Positions 7,684-48,919 of a stretch of 64,000 nt of DNA are shown here, in pieces. Position 1 is the first letter of the stretch. Each line of letters opens with the position of its first letter. The translations under genes were made by a program, and so were the position numbers. Origin of the DNA: Aristolochia californica (taxonomy: Eukaryota; Streptophyta; Magnoliopsida; Piperales; Aristolochiaceae); contig JARWKL010000009.1 in assembly GCA_029961685.1 (NCBI GenBank), positions 10,243,758-10,307,757 of the forward strand, read 5' to 3'. The notes beneath the pieces were generated by a model that was given only the letters and a program-made list of their open reading frames with translations, was not told the DNA's origin and did not search any database.

Positions 7684-8400
7684 ATGGGTAAGGAATTGGA
7701 AGAAATACGAGCACGATTAGATGCTTCCATTGAACGTTATGCAAGGGAGGAACTCGTTGTTGTAGCAAAACAAGTCACACAACCTCAAATCTCCGATCAC
7801 ATATGCGCACAAGAGGTATCAGACAGGCCAAGGGCCGGAAAAATAAAATTTTTTGTCCCATTTACCGGCCGAAGCACCTGCGGAAGGTTTGGGGGCGACC
7901 TCAAATCCAACACCAGAAACCATGGAAATCGCTGAGAATGACACAAATCCGATTTCAGACTCAGACCCTCTGCAATCAGACGATGGCGATTTTAGGAAAT
8001 CGAAGTGGTATTTCCCAAACCCCTTATCACGGGAAACCAGAATTCCATAGGCGACGCCAATAAAATCGCCTAGCAGAGAAGCCCCTAATGGGTGCTATTC
8101 ACCGTCGGAGGAAGCTCAGCAGGCACCCAACTGCAACGCCTTTCCGCCGGGGTCCATCGCTTTGGCAGCCGGCAAGGTGCGGAGCAAACAGGAGAAAGGG
8201 CAATGGGGAAAATGGGCACCAAACCGAATCTGAAACTATGAAATGGCAACTCCTCCAGCGGGTACACCTTGACGTCCTCCTATTCTCCACCAGAGGAAGA
8301 AGAGGCACCATCGGCGCCGTCGAAACCAACCCCGATGGGATGTGACTTCTGGCCATCACCTTCCACTCAGAATCTACTTCTCGGCAGACCAGAGTGAACA
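7684..8400 (+). pseudogene. A-family leader / degenerate gag N-terminus (A1 copy)
   Basis: Begins MGKELEEIRARLDASIERYA at ATG 7684. The leader also occurs in A2 (starting at 19865 on the minus strand) and A4 (ATG 37146), and a diverged version is in A3 (~32807-33815, minus). The A1 copy is frameshifted after about residue 50. Alternative frames at 7803-8350 carry the rest (TSNPTPETMEIAEND, then PLSRETRIP). The charged N-terminus is consistent with a reduced chromoviral gag, but I see no zinc knuckle. Function is unknown. Its retention in four copies suggests a packaging or translational role, which is inference. Confidence 0.5.
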
Positions 8401-8429
8401 CAAATTCCAATTTGGGGGGGTGGGGTAAG

Positions 8430-8840
8430 CGTCTCGGCAAATGCTTTTTTGAAGAACTCTGTTGTTCTGTTGATTCGCACAATACCTGTGTGTATGTTAA
8501 TTTGCCTATTGGAATGCGTTGGAAATCTTTGAATGAGATTGATCTTAGGATCAAAGAAGATTTCACTATTCTATTAGTGGATACATTTCATTTAAGTGGG
8601 AGTGCAACATCTTTTCCTTTGATGAAAATATTTTGTGAGGGGATATATTTTGCTGTTGATGAGTACAGTCACTGTGTGTGGGGTCATTACGCAATTGACA
8701 CGGTCAGGCTGGTTAATTTTCCTCTTAACGAGTTTGCCCACAATGTGAATGTCTTGTCTATATTTGTGCTTGTTGGCATGCTCCTACATGATACGCACAT
8801 TCCTTTTGAGAAAACAGCAGCAACTGCTCTAACTGTTGAA
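8430..8840 (+). pseudogene. Unidentified cargo segment in A1
   Basis: In-frame with the PABP/M20 segment that follows (open from 8394 to 9323). It reads SVDSHNTCVYVNLPIG ... DEYSHCVWGHYAIDTVRL ... LLHDTHIPFEK. A2 carries the same segment at ~18690-19070 (minus). I do not recognise the source gene. It could be host cargo or an out-of-frame part of an adjoining capture. Confidence 0.35.
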
Positions 8841-8958
8841 GGGCTAAAATTTTTGGGTCTCGTCATGCGAGACGGAGTTGGGAAATTCCAATGTTTTGGA
8901 TGTGTTAATTTTGAGAATGCAGAAGTATGCAGTAGTGCTGTCTACAATGGTAAGAATG
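8841..8958 (+). pseudogene. Captured PABP-like RRM fragment
   Basis: The peptide LVMRDGVGKFQCFGCVNFEN, followed by AEVCSSAVYNGKN, matches the second half of a poly(A)-binding-protein RRM (family RNP1 consensus is K-C-F-G-F-V-N-F). Here the RNP1 aromatic at the sixth position is Cys. About 39 residues, no intron, fused in frame to neighbouring cargo. A3 carries a related fragment plus the PABP linker. Confidence 0.6.
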
Positions 8959-9188
8959 CATGCTTGTTAAATGATTATGCTATTCGAGCTCCACCTACTG
9001 TTGGGTATGTGGAGAAAGACGAATCAGTGCTGCGTGTTTCTGCTATTAGAAGTGCCTTAGTTGAGGCTGCAGAAATGAGGTGCAGCTCAACCATCTATCT
9101 TAGGAATTTTAGTGGACTTCAAGCAGCCACAAGTGTGAACTATGAATCAGAGATGTCCTTCTTGGGAAAGGAGAGCAGTGCTGCACTT

Positions 9189-9611
9189 CAACATTCCATT
9201 GTTCTTATATTTCAACCTGCTGAGGCACAAGGAACAAGAGCTTGGAACATGCTCCCAGAAGAGGTGTTGGAAAATGTAGAGGCTATGTTGGGCATTCACT
9301 TGGGGTTTCACTATCCCACATGATTAGTGGCTTTAAAAGCTGGAAACTTCTTGACTGGCTGTGGACACTTCAAAGCAAATATTAGTGGAAAAAGATGACA
9401 TGCAGCTATTCCACAATCTTCAATTGACCCTGTTTTGGTAGCATCATCTTCAGTAATCAGCTTACAACAACTTTTCTCAAGGGAGGCAGATCCTCTAGAT
9501 TCACAGATGGTTTCAGTGTCCCACATCAATGAAGGCAGTGCTTACACTTTTATTCCTGATTTAGTAACAGTTGGCGGCACTTTCAAGGCATTTCATACAG
9601 AGCAGCCAAGT
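9189..9611 (+). pseudogene. Captured IAA-amino-acid hydrolase (ILR1-like, M20) fragment
   Basis: [61 protein letters not shown] and [14 protein letters not shown] follow, in order, the middle of plant amidohydrolases that release auxin from amino-acid conjugates. The metal-binding Glu-Glu of the FQPAEE motif is altered (PAEAQ). The frame is broken by TGA at 9321-9323 and again near 9396, but stays in register to about 9605. The fragment is intron-less and joins directly to kinase sequence. The A2 copy is at 17930-18340. Confidence 0.8.
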
Positions 9612-9668
9612 GGCAAGTTGGGGGAGATTATGAAGCATTTACCTCAACATCCAACCATAGTGGGCTTG
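9612..9668 (+). pseudogene. Captured CDPK fragment, first part (split by element C)
   Basis: [17 protein letters not shown] resembles the alpha-C region of calcium-dependent protein kinases (family pattern EVEIMRHLPKHPNIV). Element C interrupts it at GCTTG (9664-9668, repeated at 13584-13588). The reading continues at 13589. Confidence 0.7.
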
Positions 9669-10069
9669 TGTTATGGACCCCCATAGCAGGGTTTAATTAA
9701 TGCATTTTCTAGTTTATGTATTAGAAGGGTTTATTTGTAATTTATTTGAATTTGTAGGCCCTTGTTTTGGCATGTGCGTGTTTTCCCTAATTCCTTATAT
9801 AAGGACGTAAGATGAATGAGAAGGTAAGCATTAATCCAATTAGTTTTTAGCGTAGCAAGGTGGGATTCTCCCTTCTAGCCGAGATCCAGGGCGAGCTTCC
9901 CTTCACAAGCTCACACCATCTTCATCGTCTTCGCTGCTCCTCGCCATGTACCCTTACGGGTACAACTGGTCCCCTTTGACCTACAAGCTTCCATCTTCTT
10001 CTTTCCCGTATCCCCTCCAACCAACGCTGAAGAAATCGCATGGTGGCAGATCCGAAATTGGGCATAACA
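9669..10069 (+). repeat. 5' LTR of element C
   Basis: 401 bp, TGTTATGGACCCCC...GGGCATAACA. A TATATAAGG box lies at 9797-9805. The 3' copy at 13184-13583 is highly similar with scattered substitutions. Confidence 0.92.
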
Positions 10070-10072
10070 ACT

Positions 10073-10084
10073 TGGTATCAGAGC
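10073..10084 (+). promoter_or_regulatory. Primer-binding site of element C
   Basis: TGGTATCAGAGC, three bases after the LTR end; matches initiator-Met tRNA. Confidence 0.85.
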
Positions 10085-10149
10085 GGACCACCATTGGCGA
10101 TTCCTCTTCCTGCAAAAATTCGGAATTTTGTGGAATAGAATCATACTGA

Positions 10150-10530
10150 TTTCCAATCTCAAATCAATGGCCTTGACGGCAAATTCCAGATGTTGATGTC
10201 CCGAGGGGAGGAGGTCTTTGCTCAGCTTTCCGCCCAGATGGCTTCTTCTTCACGCACAGCAGAACATCTCCACCCTCAACCCCCGTCACCACCTCCGCAA
10301 TCGAGAGGACCCTTCACACAACCTTCGTCAGCAAACACGGCAGGGGGTTTGCCATCAAACCCTTCTCCCGCACAGCAGCTACCTATCACGGAAAAGCCCT
10401 CCGCACGTCTGGAATCCAACGGGGGGGGGGGGGGGGGCGACCTCAAATCTGACGACATACTCTGCTCTAGCAGACCCACAACACCTATTCATCGTCCAAC
10501 AAAAAAATTCACAAAATCGGCCACTTCTTC
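10150..10530 (+). pseudogene. Truncated chromoviral gag leader in element C
   Basis: In the right frame the segment reads SQINGLDGKFQMLMSRGEEV then AQLSAQMASSSRTAEHLHPQ. This matches the N-terminal part of the intact B2 gag (SQINGLEGKFQMLLSCMEEG then TQLSVQMASSSRPADPL). After the Pro-rich stretch the gag homology stops, close to a poly-G run (10422-10437). The gag core, nucleocapsid and all of pol are absent. Confidence 0.7.
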
Positions 10531-10539
10531 GTGATGTTC

Positions 10540-10830
10540 GCCGTCGACCACAAGTCAAGCTAGAAATTGGCAAGGGGGATGCTCGTACTGGACAAGCCCT
10601 ATTGACGGCTTATACCAATCGACAGCCACCAAAACCCAGAGATTTCGATTTTGAAGTCGAAATCGTCGCCCTAGGGGAAGCCAAAATCGTGGTTGTACGG
10701 CACACATTCAGGTATGCTAATCCCGTTCCACACTTTCTACCAGTGGAGCGTGCCTCCGAATTAACACTCAACGTGAGGTTAATGCCTGGCCGGCAAGGCC
10801 ACCGCGATTCATTCCTCTTTCGGAAATAAT
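10540..10830 (+). pseudogene. Unidentified cargo segment in element C
   Basis: Open for ~97 codons: RDVRRRPQVKLEIG ... GQALLTAYTNRQPPKPRDFD ... KIVVVRHTFRYANPV. I do not recognise a family. It lies between the gag leader and the PPR fragment. Confidence 0.3.
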
Positions 10831-10855
10831 CATCATCTTGCAATGCCAGCAGCAG

Positions 10856-11715
10856 CGGGTCTTAGCTCGGTTCCCTATCATAAATTTTTTTGATGAATTT
10901 GGACTTGGTTCTATTTCCTTGGGAATTTGGTCTCATCTATATGTGTTGAGGCAGTGTGAAAATGGTGTCGCTGGCGACGTTTTGATGAACAAATCGCTCA
11001 TAGATATGTATGCCCCGTGTGGGTCCGTCAAGATGGCGTGGCAACTGTTTGAAGAAATGCCAAAGCGGGACGTAGCTTCCTGGAATGCCATGATCATTGG
11101 GTTCGCAATGCATGGATATGTCCCAGAGGCATTAGCCACCTTCTCTCAAATGTGCATAACAGGACAGGTAAAGCCTAACTCGATCTCATTCGTTGGTGTT
11201 CTAACTGCATGTCACCCCGGAGGTTTGGTTGGTGCGGGTCATAGGTACTTCGATTTAACGGTATCAGAATACAAAATTGTACCCCAAATTGAGCACTACG
11301 GATCTGTTGTTCATCTTCTTGCGCGTGCTGGCTTAGTGGAAGAAGCCATGGATGTTGTGTCTGCTATGCCCATTAGACCAGATGTGGTGATTTGGAGAAG
11401 CCTTAAAGCTTGTTATAAGAGAAAGGTTGGAGTTGCGATCAGCGTATTACTGGCTCAGCAAACTCTAGAGTTCGATGGCGGATTTTCTCGTGGAATCTAT
11501 GTGATTCTGTCCAGGGTCTACGCCTCAGCAAACCAATGGAATGATGTCGGAATACTTAGGAGATTATTGTTTGAGAAGGGGGTGATGAAGGAACCCGGTT
11601 GTCGTTCAATTGCGTTGGATGGTATAGTTCATGAGTTTTTCGCTAGGGATTCTTCTCCTCCAAGAATAAAAGAGCTATACGACATGTTAAGTCTTTACCC
11701 TCCGGGTAGTGTCCC
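10856..11715 (+). pseudogene. Captured PLS-type pentatricopeptide-repeat protein fragment
   Basis: An open frame of ~285 codons shows classic PPR units: NKSLIDMYAPCGSVKMAWQL, FEEMPKRDVASWNAMIIGFA, GYVPEALATFSQM, IEHYGSVVHLLARAGLVEEA and MPIRPDVVIWRSL. An E-domain-like end follows (YVILSRVYASANQWNDVGIL, GVMKEPGCRSIALDG). Such proteins act in organelle RNA processing. Here the first repeats and any targeting peptide are missing, and the end runs into the solo LTR and then reductase sequence. It is surprisingly open for cargo in a dead carrier. Confidence 0.88.
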
Positions 11716-12125
11716 TGTTAGGATCCTCACGAGCCATGGATCTTGTCACCCTCCTCTCTTCTCTTCCTTCCATTATCTTGCTTGACGTTGAGATGGAATG
11801 AGGGTTGAAGGGGATTGAATTTCGGAAAGGAGAATTGGGGAAATTCGGAAGAGAGCTTGAAGGAGCTCTTGACCTGTTTATCTAAATTACGTTAACTAGA
11901 GTGAACTCAATTCATAATCTTCATTACCCTAGCCATCCCCTTAAATAGGGTGGAGGACGTCCAAAACCCTAAAGACCTCTTGGGTCAATGGTTCAAACCA
12001 ATAAATGCTAAACCAACCCAAACCAAAGACAAAACCAAACCAAAGACAATTACATGGAAATTGAAAAACACATTAATTAATTCCTACGCCTGTTGGTAAC
12101 TCGTGATGCTATAGAGTCCATAACA
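11716..12125 (-). mobile_element. Solo LTR of chromovirus family B
   Basis: 410 bp in reverse orientation. It is flanked by perfect TSD GTCCC (11711-11715 and 12126-12130) and matches the B1 LTRs at 40411-40822 and 45210-45627. It is the product of an LTR-LTR recombination that deleted one LTR and the internal region. It separates the PPR and reductase cargo of element C. Confidence 0.93.
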
Positions 12126-12375
12126 GTCCCCAATCCAGAGATTGACTTACTTGAGCCTGCTGTGACTGGTACCCTCAATGTACTTACGGCATCAACTGAG
12201 GCAAACATGACACAGGTTATTGTTGTTTCTTCTGCCTTTGCTATTGCTATGACACCAACTTGGCCACAGGATACAATCATGGATGAGACTTGCTGGTCAG
12301 CCAAAGTATACTGCAGATCAACTAAGAACTGGCACTGCCTTGCAACAACAACACCAGAAAGTGAATCTTTGGAGT
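12126..12375 (+). pseudogene. Captured cinnamoyl-CoA-reductase-like fragment
   Basis: IDLLEPAVTGTLNVLTASTE, then MTQVIVVSSAFAIAMTPTWP, then MDETCWSAKVYCRSTKNWHC follow the NADPH-dependent short-chain reductase family of CCR/dihydroflavonol reductase (family pattern EPAV.GT.NVL, VV.TSS, DE.CWSD, NWY). The NWYC-type motif with the catalytic Tyr reads NWHC here. It is intron-less and truncated at both ends. Confidence 0.8.
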
Positions 12376-12599
12376 ATGGACCGCAGAACAGACTTGACGT
12401 TGTGTCTGTCTGCCCACTCTTATTCTGGGGCCCATGATGCTCCCAACTATGAATGCAAGCAGCCTGGTTTTATTCAAGATACAGACAGGTGCACACGAGA
12501 CAATGGCAAACAAAATCCGGACAATAGTTGATGGCCGTGATGAAGCTGCAGCTCTTCTTCTTATCTATGAAAGATCAGATGCAATATGTTTCTATGCAA

Positions 12600-13035
12600 G
12601 TTCACTTTTTGTCTCAGCAGGTTTTTTCTTCCGAAAATCTTGGAACTATTGCAATGGATGCCATTCAAATCCCAATGACTACTCTAGAAGTGCTCTTGAC
12701 GGACAAGTCTGGAAGAAGGCCACTTTTAATGGTATCTGCAGCAGGAACATGTTTGGGTTGCTTCCTCACTGCAATATTATTTGTAATTCAGGGCCATGAA
12801 AAGTCGAAAGATCTAGCTCTTATACTGGCATTAGTAGGCATACTGATGTTCACAGGGTCCTGCTCCTAGGGCATGGAGGAATACCATGGGTGATAATGTC
12901 TGAGATATTCCCTATCAACTTGAAGGGCATAGCGGGAAGCCTTGTGACTCTGATCAATTGGTTTGGTTCCTGGGCTATTTCATATACTTTCAACTTTCTC
13001 ATGGTTTGGTGCTCGGTAGGAACCTTTTTCCTATA
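12600..13035 (+). pseudogene. Captured ERD6-like monosaccharide transporter fragment
   Basis: ENLGTIAMDAIQIPMTTLEV, DKSGRRPLLMVSAAGTCLGC, then after a frameshift at ~12867 [20 protein letters not shown] and [20 protein letters not shown]. These match consecutive regions of plant ERD6-like proton/sugar transporters (major facilitator superfamily), including the D-(K/R)-x-G-R-R loop and the PESPR-side helices. There are no introns. Bases ~12400-12600 upstream are open but unrecognised. Confidence 0.85.
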
Positions 13036-13170
13036 AGCTAGTAATTGTGACATAACTGTGTTGTTTATGGCAAAGCTCGTCCCATACTGTGGTTGACACT
13101 TGTCCATGGATCCAGCCATTGGCATGGGCCAGTAGACCTACCTTCGAGCTTGAGGGCAAGCTCGTTCTCC

Positions 13171-13183
13171 AGGAGGGGTGTGA
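13171..13183 (+). promoter_or_regulatory. Polypurine tract of element C
   Basis: AGGAGGGGTGTGA abuts the 3' LTR. It is preceded at ~13145-13162 by the inverted-repeat motif GAGCTTGAGGGCAAGCTC, shared with elements A, B and E. Confidence 0.8.
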
Positions 13184-13583
13184 TGTTATAGACCCCATAG
13201 CAGGGTTTAATTAATGCATTTTCCAGTTTATGTATTAGAAGGGTTTATTTGTAATTTGTTTGAACTTGTAGGCCCTTGTTTTGGCCATGTGCGTGTTTCC
13301 CTAATTCCCTATATAAGGATGTAAGATGAATGAGAAGGTAAGCATTAATGCAATTAGTTGTTAGCATAGCAAGGTCGGATTCTCCCTTCTAGTCGAGATC
13401 CAGGGCGAGCTTCCCTTCACAAGCTCACACCATCTTCATCGTCTCTGTTGCTCCTCGCCATGTACCCTTACGGGTACAACTGGTCCCCTTTGACCTACGA
13501 GCTTCCATCTTCTTCCTTCCCGTATCCCTTCCAACCAACGCTGAAGAAATCGCATGGTGACAGATCCGAAATTGGGCAAAACA
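13184..13583 (+). repeat. 3' LTR of element C
   Basis: 400 bp, TGTTATAGACCCC...GGGCAAAACA, followed by TSD GCTTG. Confidence 0.92.
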
Positions 13584-13588
13584 GCTTG

Positions 13589-13789
13589 AGGGTTACTTAC
13601 GAGGGTAATACTGCCGTGCATCTTGTGCTGGAATTGTGTGCAGGAAGTGAATTGTTTGCTCGTATCGTTGCTAGGGGACATTTTACAGTAAGGACTGCTG
13701 CTAGGCTTACCAGAACATGTGTGGAAGTAGTGCAGATGTGTCATAAGCACGGGGTCATGCACCGAGATCTCAAGCCTGAGAACTTCTAC
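13589..13789 (+). pseudogene. Captured CDPK fragment, second part
   Basis: Continues from 9668: [53 protein letters not shown]. This is the hinge to catalytic-loop region of a calcium-dependent protein kinase. The HRD-loop residues H-R-D-L-K-P-E-N are intact, but the ATP-binding Lys, DFG and activation segment are absent. It joins in frame to GH1 sequence after ~30 residues of linker. Confidence 0.88.
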
Positions 13790-13879
13790 TGTTGGGCACC
13801 TGTATCTACTGCTAAGGATGTATTTGTGCTGTATTGTTCTGCTATTAGTGTAGTAACTACTGCTAGGTCTGATGCTATT

Positions 13880-14062
13880 CCAATCAGCATTGGAATCGTT
13901 TTAGATTTCTTGTGGTATGAACCTTCTAGTGAGAGAATCGACGATATGGCAGCAGTTCAAAGGGCAAGAGATTTTCATCTCGGCTTGTTTCTGGAACCAA
14001 ACAGATTTGGTCACTACCCCAGCTCAATGGAACTAATGGTAGGCGAGCGGCTCCAACAACTC
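13880..14062 (+). pseudogene. Captured GH1 beta-glucosidase fragment
   Basis: [56 protein letters not shown] matches the plant beta-glucosidase segment with pattern ...YEP....D..AA.RA.DF..GWFL.P...G.YP..M...VG.RLP. Neither catalytic Glu (TFNEP, ITENG) is in the captured stretch, so no activity is possible. Confidence 0.85.
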
Positions 14063-14275
14063 TATTGGGTGAAATCAGATTGGAATAAAGATGAAAGAAT
14101 GGCAGGTGATTTGGTGCACACTTTTGGAAAATGGAGTGGTGATCCCACTGATAAAGGCATCCAAACCTCTCCAGACTTCAGAATTTTTGCTATCTCTTCA
14201 AAGTTTCCTCAGCTCTCTACCAAAGACAAGACCTTGGTCTTTCAATTTTTTGTTAAACATGAGCAACAGCTTGAT
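14063..14275 (+). pseudogene. Captured calreticulin N-domain fragment
   Basis: [60 protein letters not shown] follows the calreticulin N-domain closely (family: SDWKKDEN.AG.W.HTSGKW.GD..DKGIQTSED.R). The ER chaperone's P-domain, C-domain and retention signal are absent. It is fused directly after the GH1 piece with no intron. Confidence 0.9.
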
Positions 14276-14287
14276 TCTGTTCCCATG

Positions 14288-15270
14288 AAGAGGAGCACCC
14301 TCTAGCAACTTAGGCAAGATATGACGTTGGCTTCACTACTTATTGATCAAATTACCTACCTTGATGATTGGGTTGTACGGGATAGAGAGCATTCACTGTC
14401 TTTGGCTAGGCCTACTGCAACATTGGAAGCATGCCCTCTCCACCTTCCTGTCACTGATGGGGTGAGGGTAGATTATTAAGCACCTAGCCAATACTACCCA
14501 AAAGACCGGCCTGTTAGGAGCGGAAGACATAGGTACTCAACCCTTAGCCCAAGACCACCAGAGCCCCAAGGTGTCCCATAACACCCAGTGGCCCCCCAGG
14601 GTATCCCATAACACCCTAGGTTGGGTGTAACGCCCATAACATTACACCCCCCCCCCCCCCTCGTGGGCCGACGCCCACGGCGGCCCACTCATGGCTGCCC
14701 ACTCTTCCACAACGACGCACTAGGACTTAATACTTGTCACCCCTTCCGTGTGGTCGCTCCTTTCTGCAATGGCGCCACCCCTTCCGTGTGGTCGCTCCTT
14801 TCTGCAATGGCGCCTCTGCGGGGAATCAAACCCGCGACCGAGGGTTGGCTCCGATACCAAATATTAAGCACCTAGCCAATACTACCCAAAAGATCGGCAT
14901 GTTAGGAGCGGAAGACATAGGGTGTCCCATAACACCTAGTGGACCCCCAAGGTGTCCCATAACACCCTGGGTTGGGTGTAACGCCCATAACACAGATGTA
15001 CAACTGGTGAAGGATTCAATTAGTGCAGTTGTTCATGTTGTGCCAGCCATGGGTTCCTCAATGCATCATTTACTGTCAAGGGCAGAGGAGCTGAATTCTC
15101 TGGTGTCGGCACTTGCTACCGTAGCAGCACTGGAGAGTGTCCTGCTTGACGCATGTGGAGACCTATTAGCTTCAATAGCAGCAATGCCTGTAAAGGAAAG
15201 TAGCCTCAGAACTCACCTTATACAACTCCAAACAAGCGCTGATTCATGGGCTCTATCTATCTCAGCCATC
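14288..15270 (+). pseudogene. Captured QWRF-motif / augmin-8-like C-terminal fragment (split by a TRIM)
   Basis: Reads QDMTLASLLIDQITYLDDWV then LEACPLHLPVTDG at 14312-14468. After the TRIM it continues QLVKDSISAVVHVVPAMGSS, LLSRAEELNSLVSALATVAA, KESSLRTHLIQLQTS (14999-15240). This matches the conserved C-terminal block of plant QWRF proteins, microtubule-associated augmin subunit 8 relatives. A stop (TAG) at 14303-14305 precedes it. The uninterrupted version is in A2 at 16725-17165. Confidence 0.75.
14474..14992 (-). mobile_element. TRIM element 1 (complete, minus orientation)
   Basis: 519 bp. On the minus strand the 5' repeat is 14862-14992, the PBS TGGTATCGGAGC is 14848-14859, then a tRNA T-arm-like box GGGTTTGATTCCC (14821-14833), a non-coding internal region with a 38-bp tandem duplication (~14737-14812), a G-rich polypurine tract (14645-14660), and the 3' repeat 14474-14641. 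The flanks are TAGAT and CAGAT, a 5-bp TSD with one change. No coding capacity. It inserted in the QWRF piece of A1. Confidence 0.85.
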
Positions 15271-15471
15271 AAATATTTTTTTACCGGCCAGTGAAATGAA
15301 GAATGTCCACAAGAATTTGTTTTTTTCTCTCGACTAGAAAAAAAAATCCTAGAAGGCTTGCTCCAGTTTTTAGGCGACTAGAGAGCGCACATGGTTGTCG
15401 CGGATGCTACTCATTGGCGAAGACGTCGGCATACAGACACTACTTCTGAGCTGGAGGACAAGCTCGTTCTT

Positions 15472-15485: not shown

Positions 15486-15870
15486 TGTTATGAACACAAT
15501 AATATTATTATTTTAGTTGATTTTCTTTAGTGTACTTTATTTATTTTAGTTTTAAGCCATAGGGGTATTTTTGTAATATTTTATTTATAGGGATATTTTT
15601 GTAATAATTTAGCGTAAACCCTAAAAGGGACCCTATTTATGGGGTAAGAGTAATGAGAAGGGGGGGATTGAAGTATTGAGAATTAGGTTAAATCTAGCGT
15701 AAACAGGGTTGAGATCACCTTCTTGATCTCGAAGTTAAGGTTTTCCTCAAAAACCCACATATTCTCTCATCCTCCATTGATCTTCATCTTTCCCATGTCT
15801 TCCTACTATCCCTACAGTTATGTATGGCAGACCCGTAACCCAAAATCCTCCCAACGAATCCTTGTGTCTT
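15486..15870 (+). repeat. 3' LTR of A1 (truncated)
   Basis: Begins TGTTATGAACACAATAATATT and is homologous to 1850-2259 up to CGAATCCTTGTGT. The final bases (CAGATC...CCGTAACA) are missing and the sequence changes abruptly to an inverted D LTR fragment. Confidence 0.85.
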
Positions 15871-16085: not shown

Positions 16086-16481
16086 TGTTATGGTCTCGGA
16101 TCTGACACAAGGATTCGTTGGTAGGATCTTGGATCTGCCACGGGTTACGGGTCTACCATACATTACTGTAGGGATAGTAGGAAGACATGGGAAAGACGAA
16201 AATCAATGTAGGATAAGAGAATAAGTGGGTTTTTGAGGAAACCCTAACCACAAGATAAAGAAGGTGATCTCAAGCCTGTTTATGTTAGATTTAACCTAAT
16301 TATCAATGCTTCAATCCCCCCTTCTCATTACTCTTACCCCTTAAATAGGGTCCCTTTTAGGTTTTACGCTAAATTATTACAAAAATACCCCTATAAATAA
16401 AATATTACAAAAATACCCCTGTGGCCTAAAACTGAAATAAATAAAGAAAATTAAAGAAAAACAACTAAAATAATAATAACA
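16086..16481 (-). repeat. LTR type A (3' LTR of A2)
   Basis: 396 bp. The reverse complement starts TGTTATTATTATTTTAG and ends GAGACCATAACA. Left flank CCTTG. Confidence 0.85.
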
Positions 16482-16625: not shown

Positions 16626-17714
16626 TTAATTCTGGTCGAGAGAAAAAAAATTAAATAATTCTAGTGGAAATTCTTTATTTCGACGGCCGGTAAACAAATA
16701 TTCGATGGCTGAGATAGATATAGCCCATGAAGCAACGCTTGTTTGGAGTTGTATAAGGTGAGTTCTGAGGCTACTTTCCTTTACAGGCATTGTTGCTGTT
16801 GAAGCTAATAGGTCTCCACATGCGTCAAGCAGGACACTCTCCAGTGTTGCTACGGTAGCAAGTGCCGACACCAGAGAATTCAGCTCCTCTGCCCTTGACA
16901 GTAAATGATACATTGAGGAACCCATGGGTGGCACAACATGAACAACTGAACTAATTGAATCCTTCACCAGCTGTACATATGCCCTTGCCTCATCAGTGAC
17001 AGGAAGGTGGAGAAGGCATGCTTCCAATGTTGCAGTAGCCCCAGCCAAAGATAGTGAATGCTCTCTATCCCGTACAACCCAATCATCAAGGTAGGTAATT
17101 TGATCAATAAGTAGTGAAGCCAACGTCATATCCTGCCTGAGTTGCTGGAGGGTGCTCCTCTTCATGGGGACAGAATCAAGCTGTTGCTCATGTTTAACAG
17201 AAAATGGAAAGACCAAGGTCTTGTCTTTGGTAGAGAGCTGAGAAAACTGTGAAGAGATAGCAAAAATTCTGTAGTCTGGAGAGGTTTGGATGCCTTTATC
17301 AATGGGATCACCACTCCATTTTCCAGAAGTGTGCACCCAATCACCTGCCATTCTTTCATCTTTATTCCAATCTGATTTCACCCAACAGAGTTGTTGGAGC
17401 CGCTCTCCTACCATTAGTGCCATTGAGCTAGGGTAGTGACCAAATCTGTTTGGTTCCAGAAACCAGCTGAGATGAAAATCTCTTGCCCTTTGAACTGTTG
17501 CCATATCATCTATTCTCTCACTAGAAGGTTCGTACCACAAAAAATCTAACACGATTCCAATGCTGATTGGAATAGCAGCTGACCCAGCTGTAGTTACTGC
17601 ACTAATAGCAGAACCATACAACACAAATGCATCCTTAGCAGTAGATACAGGTGCCCAGTAGTAGAAGTTCTCAGGCTTGAGATCTCGATGCATGACCCCA
17701 TGCTTATGACACAT
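16626..17714 (-). pseudogene. Chimeric open frame of A2: CDPK end, GH1, calreticulin and QWRF fragments
   Basis: One uninterrupted 362-codon frame. Residues 1-17 finish the CDPK catalytic loop ([15 protein letters not shown]). About 53-109 are GH1 (17388-17558). 111-180 are calreticulin (17175-17384: [30 protein letters not shown]). 184-330 are QWRF (16725-17165: DMTLASLLIDQITYLDDWVV, KESSLRTHLIQLQTS). Compared with A1 it keeps the more family-like residues (HTSGKW rather than HTFGKW, GDWVH rather than GDLVH). It could yield a chimeric protein if transcribed from the LTR, but no start context or selection can be shown from sequence alone. Confidence 0.75.
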
Positions 17715-17914
17715 CTACACTACTTCCACACATGTTCTGCTAAGCCCACAACAGTCCTTGCTGTAAAATGTCCCCTGGCAACAATACGAGCAAACAATTC
17801 ACCTCCTGCACACAATTCCAGCACAAGATGCACTGCAGTATTACCCTCGTAAGTATCCCTCAAGTGCACTATGGTTGGATGTTGAAGTAAATGCTTCATA
17901 ATCTCCCCCAACAT
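17664..17914 (-). pseudogene. Captured CDPK fragment in A2
   Basis: [40 protein letters not shown], then a one-base deletion near 17750 shifts the frame before [15 protein letters not shown]. Here the fragment is not interrupted, showing the site where element C landed in A1. Confidence 0.85.
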
Positions 17915-17929: not shown

Positions 17930-18340
17930 TATACGAAATGCCCTGAAAGTGCCACCAACTATTACTGAATCAAGAATGAAAGTGTAAGAACTGCCTCCAT
18001 TGTTGTGGGACACTGAAACCATCTGTGAATCTAGAGGATCTGCCTCCCTTGAGACACGTTGTTGTAAGCTGATTACTGAAGATGAGGCTACCAAAACAGG
18101 GTCAATTGAAGATTATGGAATAGTTGCATGGCCTCCTTTTCCACTAATCTTTGCTTTGAAGTGTCCACAGCCAGCCAAGAAGTTTCCAGCTTTTAAAGCC
18201 ACTACTCTTGTGGGATAGTGAAACCCCAAGTTAATGCCCAACATAGCCTCTACATTTTCCAATACCTCTTCTGGGAGCATGTTCCAAGCTCCTCTTCTGT
18301 GTGCCTCAGCAGGTTGAAATATAAGAACAATGGAATGTTG
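17930..18340 (-). pseudogene. Captured M20 (ILR1-like) hydrolase fragment in A2
   Basis: HSIVLIFQPAEAHRRGAWN, LENVEAMLGINLG, ISGKGGHATIP, stop (CAA to TAA at ~18113-18115), [32 protein letters not shown]. The GKGGHA motif of the M20 lid/dimerisation region is intact here but damaged in A1 (GKR-stop). It is joined seamlessly to the CDPK piece. Confidence 0.82.
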
Positions 18341-18571
18341 AAGTGCAGAACTGTTCTCCTTTACCAAGAAGGACATCTCTGATTCACAATTCACACTTGT
18401 GGCTGCTTGAAGACCACTAAAATTCCTAAGATAGATGGTTGAGTTGCACCTCATTTCTGCAATCTCAACTGAGGCACTTCTAATAGCAGAAACATACAAC
18501 ACTGATTCGTTTTTTTCCGCATACCCAACAGTAGGTGGAGTTTGAATAGGATAATAATTTAACAAGCATGC

Positions 18572-18688
18572 ATTCTTACCCTTGTAGACAGCACTAATGC
18601 ATACTTCTGCATTCTCAAAATTAACACATCCAAAACATTGGAATTTCCCAACTCCATCTTGTGTGACGAGACCCAAAAAAATTAGCCC
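18572..18688 (-). pseudogene. Captured PABP-like RRM fragment in A2
   Basis: QDGVGKFQCFGCVNFENAEV, same segment as 8841-8958 in A1, in frame with the flanking cargo in a 334-codon frame (18113-19117). Confidence 0.6.
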
Positions 18689-31127: not shown

Positions 31128-31129
31128 CC

Positions 31130-39047: not shown

Positions 39048-39409
39048 TGTTTTGAACCCAATAGTCGGCCGAGTCAGGCAAAGACACCACTGTTGAGTCA
39101 ATTACTTTGATTGAGTCAGTTATGTAGTCATTTAGTTTATTTTGAAGTTAAATGCCATGGAAGGGCAAAATTGTAATTTTCTCTTGTGGACATGAACCCT
39201 ATTTAAGGGACAACATGGAATGAAATTGGCAAGTCTAATTTCACCCAAAACAAAGGATCGGCGTTCTCCTCAATGAACCCTAGGATCGGTGTTCTCCGAA
39301 AATGAACCCAAGGTTCAGGTCTCCCTTCGACGAGCCTGACTTCTTCTTTTCTTCGTTCTCTTCTTCATATTTCCCAATGAATTGCGTTGTGGGATCTGGG
39401 ACCATAACA
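39048..39409 (+). repeat. 5' LTR of element E
   Basis: 362 bp, homologous throughout to 48920-49281, including GAACCCTATTTAAGGGAC (promoter region). Confidence 0.9.
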
Positions 39410-39433: not shown

Positions 39434-40375
<942 letters not shown>

Positions 40376-40410: not shown

Positions 40411-40822
40411 TGTTATGGACTCTATAGCATCACGAGTTACCAACAGGCGTAGGAATTAATGAATGTGTTTTGCAATTTCCATGTAATTTTTTCTTGGTTT
40501 GGTTTTGTCTTTGGTTTGGGTTGGTTTAGCATTTATTGGTTTGAACCATTGACCCAAGAGGTCTTTAGTGTTTTGGACATCCTCAACCCTATTTAAGGGG
40601 ACGGCTAGGGTAATGAGAATTATGAATTGAGTCTACTTTAGCTAGAGTAAATTAGATAAACAAGTCAAGAGCTCCTTCAAGCTCTCTTCCGTTTTTCCCC
40701 AATTCTCCTTTCCGAAATTCAATACCCATCAATCCCTCATTCCATCTCAACGTCAAGCAAGGTAATGGAAGGAAGAGAAGAGAGGAGGGTGACAAGATCC
40801 ATGGCTCGTGAAGATCCTAACA
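40411..40822 (+). repeat. 5' LTR of B1
   Basis: 412 bp, TGTTATGGACTCTATAGC...GATCCTAACA. Confidence 0.92.
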
Positions 40823-43800
40823 ATGTGGTATCAGACAGGTCCACCCTCGGTGATTCCTCTTCTCTAGAGGACATACGTCAAGTACTTTCAGAACTTCAAC
40901 AACGATCCACTCTTCAAGGTACTGAAATTTCTCACATCAATAATACATGACAAACACTGGAATCATCTCTCCAAACCGTCATCCGACAAATTGCTGCACT
41001 TCAAGCACCAACGCCACCACCAGCAACCAATTTTCAACCACAACCAGTACCTCACTAACAATTCAAGCCACCACCAAATCCACCCCTGTGCCAACCAATG
41101 GTTTCCATGGCAACTCACGCACAAGGACCATCAACTGTTCCAAGGTACTTTAAACTTAACTTTCCTACATATGATGGCTCTAAAGATCCTTTACTGTGGT
41201 TCACGAAATGTGAACAATTCTTCTATCAACAAATGGTGGAAATGGACAAGGTTACTTTGGCCGCCTACCACCTGCTCGATGAAGCGCTCATGTGGTTCCA
41301 TCACTACCGAAATGTCCATTCCATTCAGGATTGGCTGCACTTTAAACATGCTTGCTAGTTGACGTTTGGACCTCCAGCTAGCAGCAATCCAGTGGGGGAA
41401 TTGATCAACTATAAACAGACAGGCACCTTAGAAGTTTACCAAAAAACGTTCCAAGAAAGGTTGGCCCGAGCTAGTGAATTTGTTCCTCCTCACCTACATG
41501 TTCAAATTTTTAATGCTGGATTGACAGAGGCGGTTAGATTGGAAGTGGAATTACTTGGTTTGATAGATTTGGACTCAGCAATGAATTATGCCAGAGCTGT
41601 GGAACACAAACAGAGAGTTCTAAAAGAGTCTTTACACCGAAAACCATTTTGGAACAACAGAATACAGGGTATAGCATTTGGTCCACGTTTTGGGTCCTCT
41701 GCCCCTAACCGAGCAGATCAGGCTACCAGTGTGCCTCCACACACTATGCCACATAAATTTTTGACTAAACAGGAAATGGATGCTAGAAAGGCAAAGGGCC
41801 TATGTTTTAATTGTGATGAGCAATTCCTTCCAGGACATACCTGTAAACGCTTATTCAGTATTGAACTGTTGGAAGAAGATTCAGAAGAGCTTCTTGAAAA
41901 TGAATTTGTTGAAGAGGTACAACAAGAACCAGAGCTCTCCCTCCATGCCATTCATGGCCTGCGTAGTTCTAATACCATGCAGGTAAAGGCCAGGTCACAT
42001 CATCTCATGCTACTTGCTTTAGTTTATTCGGGCAGCACACATAATTTTATCAGTGAACTAGCCGTGCAACAATTGGGATTGTCAATTCAACAACAAAGGG
42101 GACTCTCAGTTTCAGTGGCCAATGGGGCTAAAATTGCAAGTGTTGGGTTATGTGTTAACACCCCTTTCACCATTAAGGGACATTCATTTAGGCAGATTTA
42201 CTAGTCATTCCATTGGCTGGATTTGATTTGGTGCTCGGGGTCAAATGGCTCCAGTTATTAGGACCTATATTATGGGACTTTCAGGCTTGGACTATGATAT
42301 TTTCAGCACCACAAGGTCAGATTACTTTACAAGGTATGGTGGCACAGGTACCTAACGCACTTCACACTTTACAGCTTCAACACACTGGTGATGATTAGTT
42401 AGCTCCTTTACTTACAGCATTTGCGGATTTATTTAATGATCCTACGGGTCTACCACCAGTGCGTTATTGCGATCTCCGCATTCGTTTAAAGTTGGGAACT
42501 GATCCAGTAGTGGTACGGCCTTATCGTTACCCGCATATACAAAAAGATGAAATAGAACGACAGTGCATGCATATGCTCACTCAGGGTGTGATCCAGCCCA
42601 GTCGATCTCCTTTTTCCTCACTAGTGTTACTAGTACGTAAAAAGGATAAATCATGGAGATTTTGTGTCGACTATAGGCAACTCAACTTGCAAAAAATTAA
42701 GGACAAGTTCCCCATTCCAGTCGTGGACGAGTTGCTGGATGAGTTACATGGTGCTACAATTTTTACCTAATTAGATTTGAAATAGGGCTATCATCAAATA
42801 AGAGTTCACCCGATGGATGTAGAGAAGATTACCTTCCGCACACATCACGGTCATTTCGAGTTCCTTGTCATGCCCTTCGGTCTCTCCAATGCACCCTCTA
42901 CCTTTCAGGCCCTCATGAATGAGGTCTTTTCATCACTTCTGCGCAACTATGTGTTAGTCTTTTTTTATGACATTCTGGTCTACAGCAAAAATTGGGAAGA
43001 ACATCTCCACCACCTCCATCAGGTATTTACCATTCTACGCTCTCATCATTTGGTTTTGAATCAATCAAAATGTTCTATGGGTACATCTGAGGTGGTATAT
43101 TTGGGCCACGTCATATCAGCTGTGGGCATGAAAGTTGACCAGAGCAAGATACAAGCAGTAACAGATTGGCCGATTCCCACCTCCATCATAGCATTAAAGG
43201 GATTTTTGGGCCTAGCGGGATATTACAGAAAATTTATCCAATCTTATGGCTAGATAGCAGCACCACTCAACAACCTGCTAAACAAATGCCTTCCACTGAT
43301 CTTCTTTAGCGGAACAGGCCTTTCACCTGTTAAAGGAGGCCTTAGCCTCAACGCCAGTCCTACAATTACCAGATTTTGAGGGAGACTTTGTGGTGGAATG
43401 TGATGCATCCGGGGGAAGTATAGGGGCAGTGTTACAACAATTGGGACACCCCATTACTTATTTCAACCGTCAGTTGGGACAACACCACCATAAGTTAGCT
43501 GCATATGAGAGGGAATTGATCGGGTTAGCCAAGGCTGTCCAACATTGGTGACCTTATCTCTGGGGACGACCGTTTCTCATTCGTACAGATCATTGCAGCT
43601 TCAAGTATCTTCTTGAACAGCGCCTCACCACATCCCCACAGTAGCATTGGTTAACTAAACTCATGGGCTTCGATTTTACGGTTCACTCTAAGCCAGGTAG
43701 TTCGAATTTGGGGGTTGATGCTTTATCACGTCGGGATAATTCAGCCACACAAATTTATGCTATCAGTCACCCACGTTCACTGGTATTAGATTCTATTTGT

Positions 43801-45153
43801 GAGAAAGTACAGCAATATCCAGATCTCATGTCATTATATCAGGATATTCAATAGGGGACAACAGCTCCTCAGTGGACGATTCAGGATCGTCTCATACTCT
43901 AAAAAAACAGGATCTTTTTGCAAAACACATCCCCACTTCTTCACACCATCCTGTCCTCTATCCATGATAGCACACATGAGGGTCGACAGAAAACATATTT
44001 CCGAATCAGTCGGGACTTTTACTTGAAGGGCATGAAAAGCACAATTGCTGATTATGTAGCTGCTTGTCAGATTTGGCAATGAAACAAGGCCGAATCTTTA
44101 AGTCCGGCCGGCCTACTGTAACCTCTGCAACTACCGTCTCAAATCTGGTCCAACATTTCCATGGACTTCATTACTGGACTTCCCATTTCATCAGGTAAAT
44201 CTGTGATATTCGTCGTCGTTGATCGGTTTTCAAAATATGGTCACTTCATTGCTTTGGCGCATCCATATACTGCTGCTCAGGTCGCTCAATTATTTATGGA
44301 CAACATTGTCCGATTACATGGAATTCCCTCATCCATTATCAGTGAAAGGGATGTCATTTTTACCAATATCTTTTGGAAGGAATTATTTAAATTACAGGGC
44401 ACACAATTGGCATTTTCGTCTGCATATCATCCACAAATGGACGAACAAATAGAGGTTGTCAATTGCACGATTGAAATGTATCTTCGTTGTTTTGTGGGGG
44501 ACGCACCTAGAAGGTGGGTGAAATGGCTTTCATGGGCAGAATTTTGCTATAACACATCTTACCACACAGCACTGGGAACTACTCCTTTCAGGGTAGTTTA
44601 TGGCAAAGATCCACCTCGTCTGTTACCATATGAACCTGGGGCATCCAAAGTCATCGCTTTGGACCAAGCGTTAGCTAAAAGAGACGCTATGTTCACTGAG
44701 GTACGTACTCATCTAAAGGAGGCCCAACCCGCTATGAAATGCTATTATGATAAGAAGCACCGGGAGACATCTTATTTCCCTGGAGACTATGTGTGGTTAA
44801 AGCTTCAACACTACCACCAGCTGCCCCTGACTGCATCCAAGCGCCATAAGCTGTCTCCAAAATATTATGGTTCATTTCAGGTATTGGACAAAATTGGGCC
44901 CATGGCATACCGCTTGCAGCTACCACCGGAATCAAAGCTCCACAATGTATTTCATGTCTCCCAATTGAAGCCATTCCAGGGTTACTCGCCCCTACTGCAC
45001 ACTCCACTGCCGCCACTACATGAGGGCAGAGTCCTTTCTATTGCAGTTCAGGTAGTACAAGCACGCCACATTCAAGGTGATTGGGAAATTCTTGTCCAGT
45101 GGGCAGATGCCGACCCCAGTGACACTACATGGGAGCCGTTATCAGCATTTTGA
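40801..45153 (+). pseudogene. B1 chromovirus gag-pol pseudogene
   Basis: Starts at ATG 40801 inside the LTR, as in B2. Recognisable parts: gag core (FPTYDGSKDPLLWFTKCEQF at ~41162; LIDLDSAMNYARAVE); knuckle CFNCDEQFLPGHTC (~41803); protease with DSG changed to YSG (LALVYSGSTHNFIS, ~42015); RT (FRTHHGHFEFLVMPFGLSNA; FFYD in place of FFDD at ~42962); RNase H at ~43380-43560; integrase (MDFITGLPISSGKSVIFVVV; NVFHVSQLKPF); chromodomain-like end (ILVQWADADPSDTTWEPL). Stops and frameshifts (for example at 41356, 42202, 42768, 43251) and the active-site changes make it inactive. Confidence 0.9.
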
Positions 45154-45209
45154 CTCTTATATCCTTCCTTCGAGCTTGAGGACAAGCTCTTTCTCCAGGA
45201 GGGGGGTGA

Positions 45210-45627
45210 TGTTATGGATTCTATAGCATCATGAGTTACCAACAGGCGTACGAATTAATGAATGTGTTTTGCAATTTCCATGTAATTGTTTCTTGGTTTG
45301 GTTTTGTCTTTGGTTTGGGTTGGTTTAGCATTTATTGGTTTGAACCATTGACCCAAGAGGTCTTTAGTGTTTTGGACGTCCTCAAACCTATTTAAGGGGA
45401 TGGATAGGGTAATGAGAATTATGAATTGAGTCTACTTTAGCTAGAGTAAATTAGATAAACAAGTCAAGAGCTCCTTCAAGCTCTCTTCCGTTTTTCCCCA
45501 ATTTTCCTTTCCGAAATTCAAAACCCATCAATCTCTCATTCCATCTCAACGTCAAGCAAGGTAATGGAAGGAAGAGAAGAGAGGAGGGTGACAAGATCCA
45601 TGGCTCGCGAGGATCCAAAGAACAACA
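45210..45627 (+). repeat. 3' LTR of B1
   Basis: 418 bp; follows the PPT; right flank is a 12-base C run that includes the TSD. Confidence 0.88.
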
Positions 45628-46769: not shown

Positions 46770-47690
46770 AAGCTTCCGTATACATCACAAGAGGTTCTTG
46801 AGCAGCATTCATGTTGTGCTGCCTTTGAACACCCATTGTATTTGCAATATGATGAGAGGTACTTTGGTTCTGGATTGGATGGTGCAGTAAAGACTCTTGC
46901 GCATAAAGGCTATCTAATTTCAGATCCTTCCCCGGCTGCTACAAAATCATGGAATTACATTGGAAATGAAGTTTATGAAGGAGCTGTTTATATGCATCAA
47001 GGAACACCTATATTGTGACGCGCTTTGATCAATCAGAGAAGACTGTTTTCTGCCAGGAAGTAGACTTGAAATTTTACACAAAGACACGTGATTACACAGA
47101 TATACATGTTCTTGGTGGGAACTTTGCTTATCCTGTGGTGTCAGACGAAGGCTACAGGCTCAATCAAATTCCAGGACAGTAACAACCACATGGTTTGGGT
47201 TCTATCTCTTCTGGCAGGGTAGTAATCAAATATTTGACATAGTCGACCTTGCTCTTCCAAATTTTTCATATGATTCTTAGGCAGTATGGATTTGGATTCC
47301 CCCCGCCAGTAAAAGCAGAAGTAGAGCATCAATTTCAGTCGTTTCATGCTGGCCAGCATGCTACTTCTCGTGCTCTTCTTAATGTGGTACCTTTGTACAT
47401 TACATGCAATAATTCGGACATGGGTTCAGAGTGTGCAAATCCCCATGACACTCGCTTTGTTCCAAAAAGATTGTTGTTGTATGATCGACATCCTGGAGCC
47501 ATAGGTCTTTCAGCACCAGTTCATGCAATTTTTGGGGACCTCTCGGCAACAACATTGGAACTTGTGATAACATGCCACTACTCAACCAATTGCGGTTGCC
47601 CAAACTGTGTTCAGATTCCAACATGCGAGTACAATGAAGTTTTGGACAAGAATGTCACCATTATGATTCTTCAGGGAGTCATTGAAGCTG
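46770..47690 (+). pseudogene. Captured HRQ1-type DNA helicase C-terminal fragment
   Basis: AFEHPLYLQYDERYFGSGLD, KSWNYIGNEVYEGAVYMHQG, then in shifted frames KTVFCQEVDLKFYTKTRDYT DIHVLGG, and SECANPHDTRFVPKRLLLYD, HPGAIGLSAPVHAIF, NCGCPNCVQIPTCEYNEVLD. This follows the C-terminal half of plant HRQ1 (RecQ-like/MZB, DUF1998) helicases, including the cysteine cluster, though the helicase motor is absent. At least two frameshifts and a stop (near 47015 and 47180). Confidence 0.82.
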
Positions 47691-47959
47691 AGAGATCTTA
47701 CTGGCAGGCCAATGACATGAGGGATGCTATACAGAAGGTTGTTGCTGCCTCAGATAGCACACTAGTGGAAGGTGTGATCAGCCATCAGCTTAACCAGTTT
47801 GTCATTGCTAAAACCGAATTTCTCCTCAGTGTGAGCAATCCCAAAACTTGTGTTGCTAATGCAAAATTCTAGAAAAAGGCAGTATATGTGTCGTCATGGT
47901 TTATATATGGTGCAATTCGTCAGAAGGTCCTTGCATACTTCTGGTGGTACTTGGATAGT

Positions 47960-48510
47960 CTGTAGGAGAACATATTTGCATATGTGCCCCTATCAAACTC
48001 CTTCAGATTCTGTACATTACTGGGTTTCAAGATCTTGGCAGCAGCAAAGGTGGATGTTTCCATTGTTGAGGTGGGTTTAGGAGAACCATTTGATGCAACT
48101 AAAGTGTGACAGAAACCAGTGTTCAGTGGATATTTTACCTGGGATATTACCATAGGCATATCCTAAGACACATTCCTGGTGCCATTACTGGAGAGCAAGC
48201 AAGCATATTAAAGGATGAAGTGGCAGCATTTACTGTTTCCTAGCCAGTAGAATCCATGATAATAATTGAGAACAAGGCCGCTCACCTAGGTGTGCCCTTA
48301 CAAATAGTGCCCCCGTTGGACATGGGCTTGCTTACTGATCGGCAACTGGGACTTCAAAAGGACCACCAGTGTCTAACTACAGTACTTGCAATTACCCTCA
48401 GTCATACATGGATTCAAAAATTGGGACACATTCAAAACACAGACAGGGTCCAGAGCTATTTAGCTGAGGAGTTTGTAGTAGGACTTGTAATGGCCAAATT
48501 ACTAGATCTG
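47960..48510 (+). pseudogene. Captured folylpolyglutamate synthase fragment
   Basis: FRFCTLLGFKILAAAKVDVS then IVEVGLGEPFDATKV (48002-48107), then in another frame GAITGEQASILKDEVAAFTV, VESMIIIENKAAHLGVPLQI, VPPLDMGLLT, GLQKDHQCLTTVLAITLSHT. This is the central domain of FPGS, which extends the glutamate tail of folates. Upstream 47880-47960 resembles the same enzyme weakly. Frameshifts and a stop (48241-48243) are present. Confidence 0.85.
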
Positions 48511-48597
48511 GCACAGGTGCTAATTGACCCACTACTGAGTTCAAAGTGGAACCCAGCTGCCAACGATTTCAGGCCAACTATTTTTAGTCCCAATTGA

Positions 48598-48745
48598 CCC
48601 TGACTGGGAGGATGATGATGTTTATTTGAACCATTGGAATGATGCAATGAGGATGATGCGGTCAGAAACCCAACACTCTTGAGCTGCTCATAATGCTTAT
48701 ATACGAGGTGATCATTTCTCAGCTCAGCAGCTTTCAAAAAAAAAA
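48598..48745 (+). pseudogene. Captured DUF1771/Smr-type protein fragment
   Basis: DDVYLNHWNDAMRMMRSETQ, AAHNAYIRGDHFSAQQLS matches the DUF1771 helix pair found N-terminal to Smr domains in plant proteins (pattern Y...R.DA..MMR...QHS.AA..A...GDH..AQ..S). Interrupted by a stop and an A-run at 48729-48747. Confidence 0.6.
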
Positions 48746-48829
48746 AAAATCCCACAAAATTTCCATCTGTGCTGCTACATTGGTACGCTTCCACCGCTTG
48801 GTTGTCTAGTGGGCTGACACAGTTAAAGT

Positions 48830-48919
48830 GGGTGCTACTTGGGATGATTTGGATCAGTTGTGGCAAGCATACCCTACCTTTGAGCTTGCGGTCTAGCTCG
48901 TTCTCCAGGAGGGGTGTAA
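48830..48919 (+). pseudogene. Chromoviral polyprotein tail and PPT of element E
   Basis: TWDDLDQLWQAYPTFEL followed by a stop and LVLQEGCNVMNP matches the end of the B1/B2 polyprotein (SWETLESFQTLFPTFELEDK in B2). PPT AGGAGGGGTGTAA at 48907-48919 abuts the LTR. Confidence 0.75.

Follow-up and report, generated by a model that had tools for sequence, protein, structure and literature searches.

The 64-kb stretch of DNA analysed here (C511:10243758-10307757 of the Aristolochia californica assembly; hereafter the window) carries an insert complex, from about 1850 to 49281, of long terminal repeat (LTR) elements (A to E) that contain pieces of unrelated host genes and no complete pol. These are very probably non-autonomous LTR retrotransposons related to the Ty3/gypsy-like elements of the window, in which parts of spliced and polyadenylated host mRNAs have taken the place of the middle portion, presumably through template switching of the reverse transcriptase (RT), with later jumps between the chimaeras. 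This reading is carried by the spliced exons of three genes, a non-genomic poly(A) tract in one copy (L063), blocks shared between copies with alternative neighbours, amplification and the retained termini of the elements. The genome searched comprises 659.6 Mb in 521 contigs, and the L-numbered loci are element copies or gene loci elsewhere in the same genome.

Organisation of the elements in the window

Comparison of LTR pairs identified A, C, D and E as LTR elements, with LTRs reading TGTTATG...TAACA. A site resembling a primer binding site (PBS), TGGTATCAGAGC, and a conserved end of pol with the polypurine tract (PPT) are present, so that the termini (LTR, PBS, PPT) are those of a Bs1-type element. 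Target site duplications (TSDs) were found for B (perfect, 5 bp, GCTTG) and E (4/5), and a recognised intact 5' LTR of C and of D was not found within the window. A and C belong to the same family and are arranged tail to tail, A 7665-9668 being 89.6% identical to C, and D (29754 to about 33900) represents a related family. The 5' LTR of A is cut off from the remainder by a nested LTR element, and with it the complex is longer than the span of 8400 to 48919 given in the first-pass annotation. The features are listed below by window coordinates.

1850..2259, + strand: 5' LTR of A (TGTTATG...CGTAACA; LTR pairing), then PBS-like TAGTATCAGAGC at about 2262-2273
2548..7664, + strand: nested LTR element splitting A, which we take to be copia-type (LTR pair 2548-2949/7274-7664, K=0.042)
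8346..9668, + strand: A, leader and M20 IAA-amino-acid hydrolase fragment (M20_dimer E=0.051, below cut-off; the homologue in C matches PDB 1xmb)
9669..13583, + strand: B, nested in A, with PPR, cinnamoyl-CoA reductase (CCR) and sugar transporter cargo (LTRs 9669-10069 and 13184-13583; solo LTR of the 40411 family inside B at 11716-12131)
13589..14059, + strand: A, CDPK joined to GH1 beta-glucosidase in one ORF (Pkinase 1.6e-13; Glyco_hydro_1 2.4e-8)
14066..15237, + strand: A, calreticulin (14066-14275; tblastn) and AUGMIN8/QWRF (QWRF 4.8e-9), the latter as about 14270-14473 and 14995-15237, broken by ~520 bp
15338..15346, + strand: A, A9 tract where the retained pol 3' end begins
15486..15841, + strand: truncated 3' LTR of A
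16086..16477, - strand: 3' LTR of C
16686..17177, - strand: C, AUGMIN8 exons (residues 442-590), then ~45 nt of parental 3' untranslated region (3'UTR); stop codon lost, 4 introns absent
17175..17384, - strand: C, calreticulin fragment (PDB 3o0v E=1.4e-10; 71% to P0054)
17388..17639, - strand: C, GH1 beta-glucosidase fragment (Pfam 6.1e-8; PDB 4qlk 5.9e-15)
17664..17905, - strand: C, CDPK fragment with a frame break at 17714/17723 (Pfam/PDB match)
17933..18364, - strand: C, M20 IAA-amino-acid hydrolase fragment (PDB 1xmb E=5.2e-16 and 1.5e-16)
18365..20007, - strand: C, 5' leader with patches common to D (70-79%; DNA comparison)
29754..29942, - strand: part of the 3' LTR of D
30092..30100, - strand: D, run of nine A (T9 on the + strand) where the retained pol 3' end begins
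30692..30886, - strand: D, PABP fragment, weak (PDB 6r5k E=0.043; TIGR01628 E=9.3e-6, yet far below that model's cut-off)
31123..31604, - strand: D, ATCase fragment, 2 parental introns absent (OTCace_N 8.2e-30; 90-95% to the gene on C111)
39048..39409, + strand: 5' LTR of E (LTR pair K=0.114)
40062..40370, + strand: E, ARF GTPase fragment (Arf 9.5e-29 and 1.6e-6)
40411..45616, + strand: nested LTR element splitting E (protease, RT and integrase matches)
46782..47707, + strand: E, HRQ1 helicase fragment (WHD_HRQ1, MZB), of which 46971-47707 covers 7 parental exons
48736..48749, + strand: E, A14 tract ahead of the retained pol 3' end
48920..49281, + strand: 3' LTR of E

Host-gene cargo

Cargo families were judged by Pfam (at curated cut-offs), PDB or NCBIfam matches, and the Pfam scan took in 30 sense open reading frames (ORFs) from elements A to E together with 10 ORFs from the opposite strand of the same elements. 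Matches above the curated cut-offs were obtained for 11 of the 30 sense ORFs, all of them to host families, and 19 gave none; the opposite-strand ORFs gave none in 10, with one chance DUF at E=0.074. Domain matches thus place pieces of at least two unrelated host genes between LTRs. The first-pass annotation had named fourteen host families, and twelve of these were supported, namely M20, CDPK, GH1, calreticulin, QWRF (AUGMIN subunit 8), PPR, CCR, sugar transporter (supported as such, the annotation having specified ERD6), ATCase, ARF, HRQ1 and, weakly, PABP; FPGS found no confirming match in the ORFs tried, nor DUF1771 among the ORFs scanned with Pfam.

Reverse transcriptase, integrase and protease had no match in any of the 30 scanned ORFs, in agreement with the earlier description of elements with LTR, PBS and PPT and no pol. 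Only the end of pol, its last roughly 100-150 nt plus the PPT, remains before the 3' LTR, and this stretch aligns with the pol of the gypsy-like elements at 58492-63603 and 40411-45616 of the window, which bears in part on the previously proposed chromovirus derivation. In-frame junctions, also claimed earlier, were seen in several ORFs. In C, for instance, an ORF of 362 aa (16629-17714, - strand) runs through the end of the CDPK piece, GH1, calreticulin and QWRF in one frame, and the ORF preceding it (17723-18112, - strand) joins M20 to CDPK in frame. The ORF at 18116-19183 in the leader of C had no match in the Pfam scan. The calreticulin P0054 was rejected as the direct parent of the calreticulin piece, with which it shares 71% identity over the fragment.

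Absence of parental introns

Parents were located for three of the captured genes, and of the 12 parental introns that C (4), D (2) and E (6) span, none remains at the exon joins. The closest AUGMIN8 gene found lies on C35 (P0004) and is 87-93% identical to C per exon; its introns, which show GT/AG ends where displayed, are absent from C (four) and from L053 (five). The TAA stop codon of the parent reads TCA in the ten copies compared, and the copies run on into about 45 nt of 3'UTR. For HRQ1, seven exons spread across 12.7 kb of C438 correspond to one uninterrupted stretch of 737 bp in E; all six introns, three of which measure 2.3-5.1 kb in the parent, are missing from E as well as from the copies L040 and L047. 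The multi-exon gene is represented by L057/L061/L062; L039-L048 were rejected as the parent, being element copies. In the case of ATCase, with its parent on C111, both spanned introns are absent in D, three in L066 and four in L063. L063 holds an ORF of 397 aa with a gap-free match to 300 residues of the PYRB chain 6ypo (E=7e-159). Its ATCase sequence is 91% identical to an A. californica ATCase and at most 85% to those of other species (best 120 of 7829 matches). Upstream of ATCase in L063, a frame at about 1380-1478 looks PPR-like by eye.

As every spanned intron is missing at the exon joins, AUGMIN8, HRQ1 and ATCase are read as captured at the RNA level, and for these three located parents the comparison shows genes picked up as mature mRNA. 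Genomic gene pieces could alternatively have been captured as DNA, in the manner of Pack-MULEs or Helitrons or as filler of double-strand breaks, and several unrelated gene pieces per element are frequent in Pack-MULEs and Helitrons (see also the review PMC13317346). The loss of all the spanned introns in three genes, the long HRQ1 introns among them, and the non-genomic poly(A) of L063 described below contradict such a route for AUGMIN8, HRQ1 and ATCase; it might survive only for fragments from other parents, and as an account of the elements it is scarcely credible. The features of a Pack-MULE or Helitron were not found, the introns being absent in three genes and the termini being LTRs; no separate search for terminal inverted repeats or Helitron ends was made.

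Poly(A) tracts and junctions

The ATCase capture in L063 begins near the coding start and continues through the stop codon and the parental 3'UTR into a run of 19 A, after which comes the pol end. The parental sequence differs at that point, and no run of A longer than 5 occurs in the parental 3' flank examined, so the tract represents a tail and not genomic sequence. Runs of 8-19 A were found at the cargo/pol junction in 14 of the 17 chimaera ends read (A, D, E, L014, L019, L023, L026, L033, L034, L047, L053, L063, L064 and L065), many of which share ancestry. The pol-bearing elements at 58492-63603 (F) and 40411-45616 have no A-run at the corresponding place. There are 14 A or T runs of at least 9 in the window, and three of its five chimaeras have one at the junction, which is unlikely to have arisen by chance.

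Spliced exons and poly(A) tails are likewise produced by long interspersed nuclear elements (LINEs), and processed pseudogenes of this type could have been inserted serially into LTR elements, with deletions afterwards. Such an origin is very unlikely for the present elements. The ATCase copy in L063, the sole case checked, is bordered by no TSD-like repeat (the longest exact match, of 7 nt, lies away from the edges), and a LINE origin of this copy was rejected because it lacks a TSD of its own. The fragments, moreover, adjoin in frame in several ORFs, and pol is absent between the leader and the poly(A), which would demand additional deletions each time. Short shared sequences of 4-5 nt were observed at two joins, GATT at the calreticulin/AUGMIN8 join of C and CAATG at an internal deletion of AUGMIN8 in L053.

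Copies and modular exchange of cargo

A search with the CDPK-GH1-calreticulin-AUGMIN8 block of C gave 40 scored places among 1270 first-look candidates; 30 were taken (L009-L038) and joined with eight M20 loci (L001-L008) for comparison, five places occurring twice in the set. Pfam and PDB searches were run on a few loci per cargo group, and the remaining group membership rests on DNA match. The block is multicopy and has at least three alternative 5' cargoes, namely M20, PPR-Nup98/96-GltS and phospholipid P4-ATPase. The 13 M20 loci correspond to eight distinct places, and the block lies downstream in seven of them by DNA match, including A and C of the window. In the eighth, L003, a longer M20 piece runs into xylose isomerase within one ORF of 212 aa (PDB 1a0c E=3.6e-25). 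All 17 loci from L014 to L030 carry upstream PPR (weak), Nup98-96 and a GltS GXGXG piece (GltS below the curated cut-off), and seven of the eight from L031 to L038 carry a P4-ATPase piece (PDB 6k7g E=2.8e-34). L054 combines PDI, GH1 and calreticulin with a longer AUGMIN8 piece, and it is from an L054-like form that the calreticulin/AUGMIN8 join of C seems to have been derived by later shortening. The ATCase module of D also recurs beside other neighbours, including an H+-pyrophosphatase piece.

At least about 60 places with AUGMIN8 fragments were found besides four gene loci (introns were checked in three of the four), and by their dispersal these copies show past mobility. In the AUGMIN8 tree, the identities of which are approximate (the spliced parent sequence is one base off at one exon join and a few bases short at another), the pieces of the three cargo groups split from the gene, L053 and L054 with a support of 1.00.

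The joining of M20 to xylose isomerase in L003 implies that cargo was exchanged between elements as well as captured, and A and C consequently did not necessarily acquire their M20 piece by a new capture. Captures might even have been few, with most of the combinations arising by recombination, at the RNA or the DNA level, among elements that were already chimeric. This is a real possibility, if somewhat short of an even one: L003 makes a join of two chimaeras the simplest account of the M20-block arrangement in A and C, the three groups are mixed together in the block tree, and the ATCase and AUGMIN8 modules are found in several contexts. Each context, however, adds host genes unseen elsewhere (PPR/Nup98-96/GltS, P4-ATPase, PDI, H+-pyrophosphatase, xylose isomerase), so that many captures are still required. 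Recombination of this kind is compatible with serial capture of mRNA by template switching and does not exclude it.

Proposed mechanism of capture

The elements have kept their LTRs, PBS, 5' leader, the last part of pol and the PPT. The gag-pol of an autonomous relative would package the element RNA along with host mRNA. During minus-strand synthesis the RT, having copied the 3' LTR and the pol end, would switch to an mRNA (at the poly(A) tail in the case of L063), copy towards the 5' end of the mRNA and then jump at short shared sequences either into another RNA or back to the 5' leader of the element. The chimaera would then integrate and amplify, and jumps between the RNAs of different chimaeras in later rounds could place the CDPK-GH1-calreticulin-AUGMIN8, M20 and ATCase blocks in several combinations. 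A jump from the pol end into poly(A), copying of the mRNA, additional jumps where short sequences are shared and a return to the leader would account for the ends that were kept, for the position of the poly(A) and for the spliced state of the exons. Co-packaging, the order and direction of the jumps and the identity of the helper are parts of the scheme that we infer.

Template switching during reverse transcription appears to be the best-supported route, because 4-5 nt are shared at two joins, the ATCase copy has no TSD-like repeat, and the leader and the pol 3' end are retained. The first-pass annotation had proposed RNA-level capture by this means from the lack of introns and the in-frame junctions. 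Its first element is borne out by introns missing exactly at the exon joins of AUGMIN8, HRQ1 and ATCase and by the non-genomic poly(A) of L063; most fragments match the families it named, and no parental intron is retained for the three parents. Template switching is upheld as the probable route, and the exchange between elements seen in L003 is an addition to that account.

Several observations weigh against this reading. The A-run is lacking at the cargo/pol junction of B, C and L055, the 17 chimaera ends are not independent, and in L053 the A17 tract is parted from the AUGMIN8 3'UTR by about 80 nt of other sequence. The parents of M20, CDPK, GH1, calreticulin, PPR, CCR, ARF and other fragments were not located, so that it is from neighbouring pieces that their capture as RNA is inferred. 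The simple scheme of a constant 3' block with varying 5' cargo breaks down in L003, which has no block in the 1.3 kb examined, and L031 has the block with an upstream sequence other than P4-ATPase. The three groups are intermixed with low support within the AUGMIN8/block tree, and the M20-block join of A and C may itself be a recombination between two chimaeras. No autonomous element with matching LTRs was identified.

Comparison with known systems

In LTR-mediated retroposition and retroviral oncogene transduction, mRNA is joined to element sequence by template switching of the RT. The Aristolochia elements differ from these in the serial build-up of many genes and in their persistence as amplified plant families. 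The phenomenon is gene transduction of the Bs1 type, here with a larger number of genes in each element, higher copy numbers and exchange of modules. Bs1 of maize is, in the accessible text of a 2026 review (PMC13317346), likewise an LTR element with several unrelated host gene pieces (from three genes) and a chimeric ORF. The Aristolochia elements differ from Bs1 in that five or more gene pieces were identified in A/C, with still more in the PPR/Nup group. They also form several families, number tens of copies, have cargo that can be exchanged and retain a poly(A) tail at the junction with pol.

Amplification of host gene fragments within LTR elements is also described in the available portions of reports on maize (PMC2774510) and on rice and sorghum (PMC3726574). 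The maize survey, in that portion, counts 425 elements carrying gene fragments and no fewer than 189 captures; under the conditions it set, none of the elements had two or more standard nuclear genes, whereas the Aristolochia elements hold several. Pack-MULEs and gene-carrying Helitrons are alike in being mobile elements packed with host gene pieces (PMC13317346, accessible text); they are DNA transposons, unlike the Aristolochia elements with their LTR/PBS/PPT termini and spliced-out introns.

A literature search, mostly without subscription papers, gave no account of such elements in Aristolochia, and the accessible text of the A. californica genome paper (PMC11334207) does not contain 'ltr' or 'retrotranspos'. 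Within the literature surveyed, Bs1 serves as the example of a plant LTR element that has transduced several genes, with none beyond one gene in the maize survey. The steps of capture are legible in the Aristolochia elements: exons are spliced, a poly(A) tail precedes the pol end, joins show short shared sequences, and related elements have blocks in common beside different neighbours. This makes it testable how, and how often, RT builds multi-gene chimaeras.

Coding capacity of the chimaeras

A single frame of 864 aa in L055 runs through M20, CDPK, GH1, calreticulin and QWRF (calreticulin by alignment to relatives, not Pfam), and a frame of 516 aa in L033 leads from P4-ATPase through CDPK, GH1 and calreticulin into QWRF. 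The ratio of nonsynonymous to synonymous substitution rates (dN/dS), pooled between block copies, is 0.74-0.94 for the block, 0.68-0.91 for QWRF, 0.61-0.99 for GH1 and 0.96-2.0 for calreticulin. At least one stop occurs within the first 330 codons in 16 of the 31 aligned rows, frameshifts being left out of these counts. Purifying selection on the chimeric ORF is not convincing at a pooled block value of 0.74-0.94, which makes the cargo look mostly passive; the open frames are mostly inherited from the parent genes and decaying, with weak constraint possible on ancestral copies.

It is conceivable, though doubtful, that the elements act as an exon-shuffling engine, in which every RT cycle may jump into a new mRNA or another chimaera and long in-frame ORFs are favoured, aiding expression or packaging of the RNA. 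If true, such a lineage would turn dozens of host mRNAs into new multi-domain proteins, and the fusions of up to 864 aa and the lost AUGMIN8 stop would belong to this picture.

The A. californica protein P0003 (PDI-like) sits within the chimeric ORF of L054 (C24:15017500-15021500), and in P0002 (calreticulin-1-like) GH1 and calreticulin are fused in the same way. Each has the look of an element ORF that was annotated as a gene, a warning to gene annotators that such ORFs can pass as genes.

Additional features of the elements

A stretch of L053 at about 2356-2420, present at the same place in the compared copies (GAAATGAAGAATGT...), matches no identified gene and is perhaps the 3' end of another captured mRNA. 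In the same locus, LTR-like sequences at 1107-1416 and 2598-2907, 94.5% identical and inverted, flank the AUGMIN8 piece, an odd arrangement for an LTR element.

In the window, A and C lie about 300 bp apart and form a long interrupted inverted repeat (7665-15841 against 16142-19884, 90-94% identity), from which hairpin small RNAs could arise. A sequence of about 82 bp, GTTATG...CATAACA, recurs in A, C, D and E (2443-2525, 19925-20007, 33806-33888 and 46549-46629, respectively; 87-93% identity) and could represent a leader motif or else a very small LTR-like repeat. Element F at 58492-63603 has LTRs that differ at 1 of 375 sites, a TSD of CAACA and ORFs of 834 and 700 aa, and is by these features very young.

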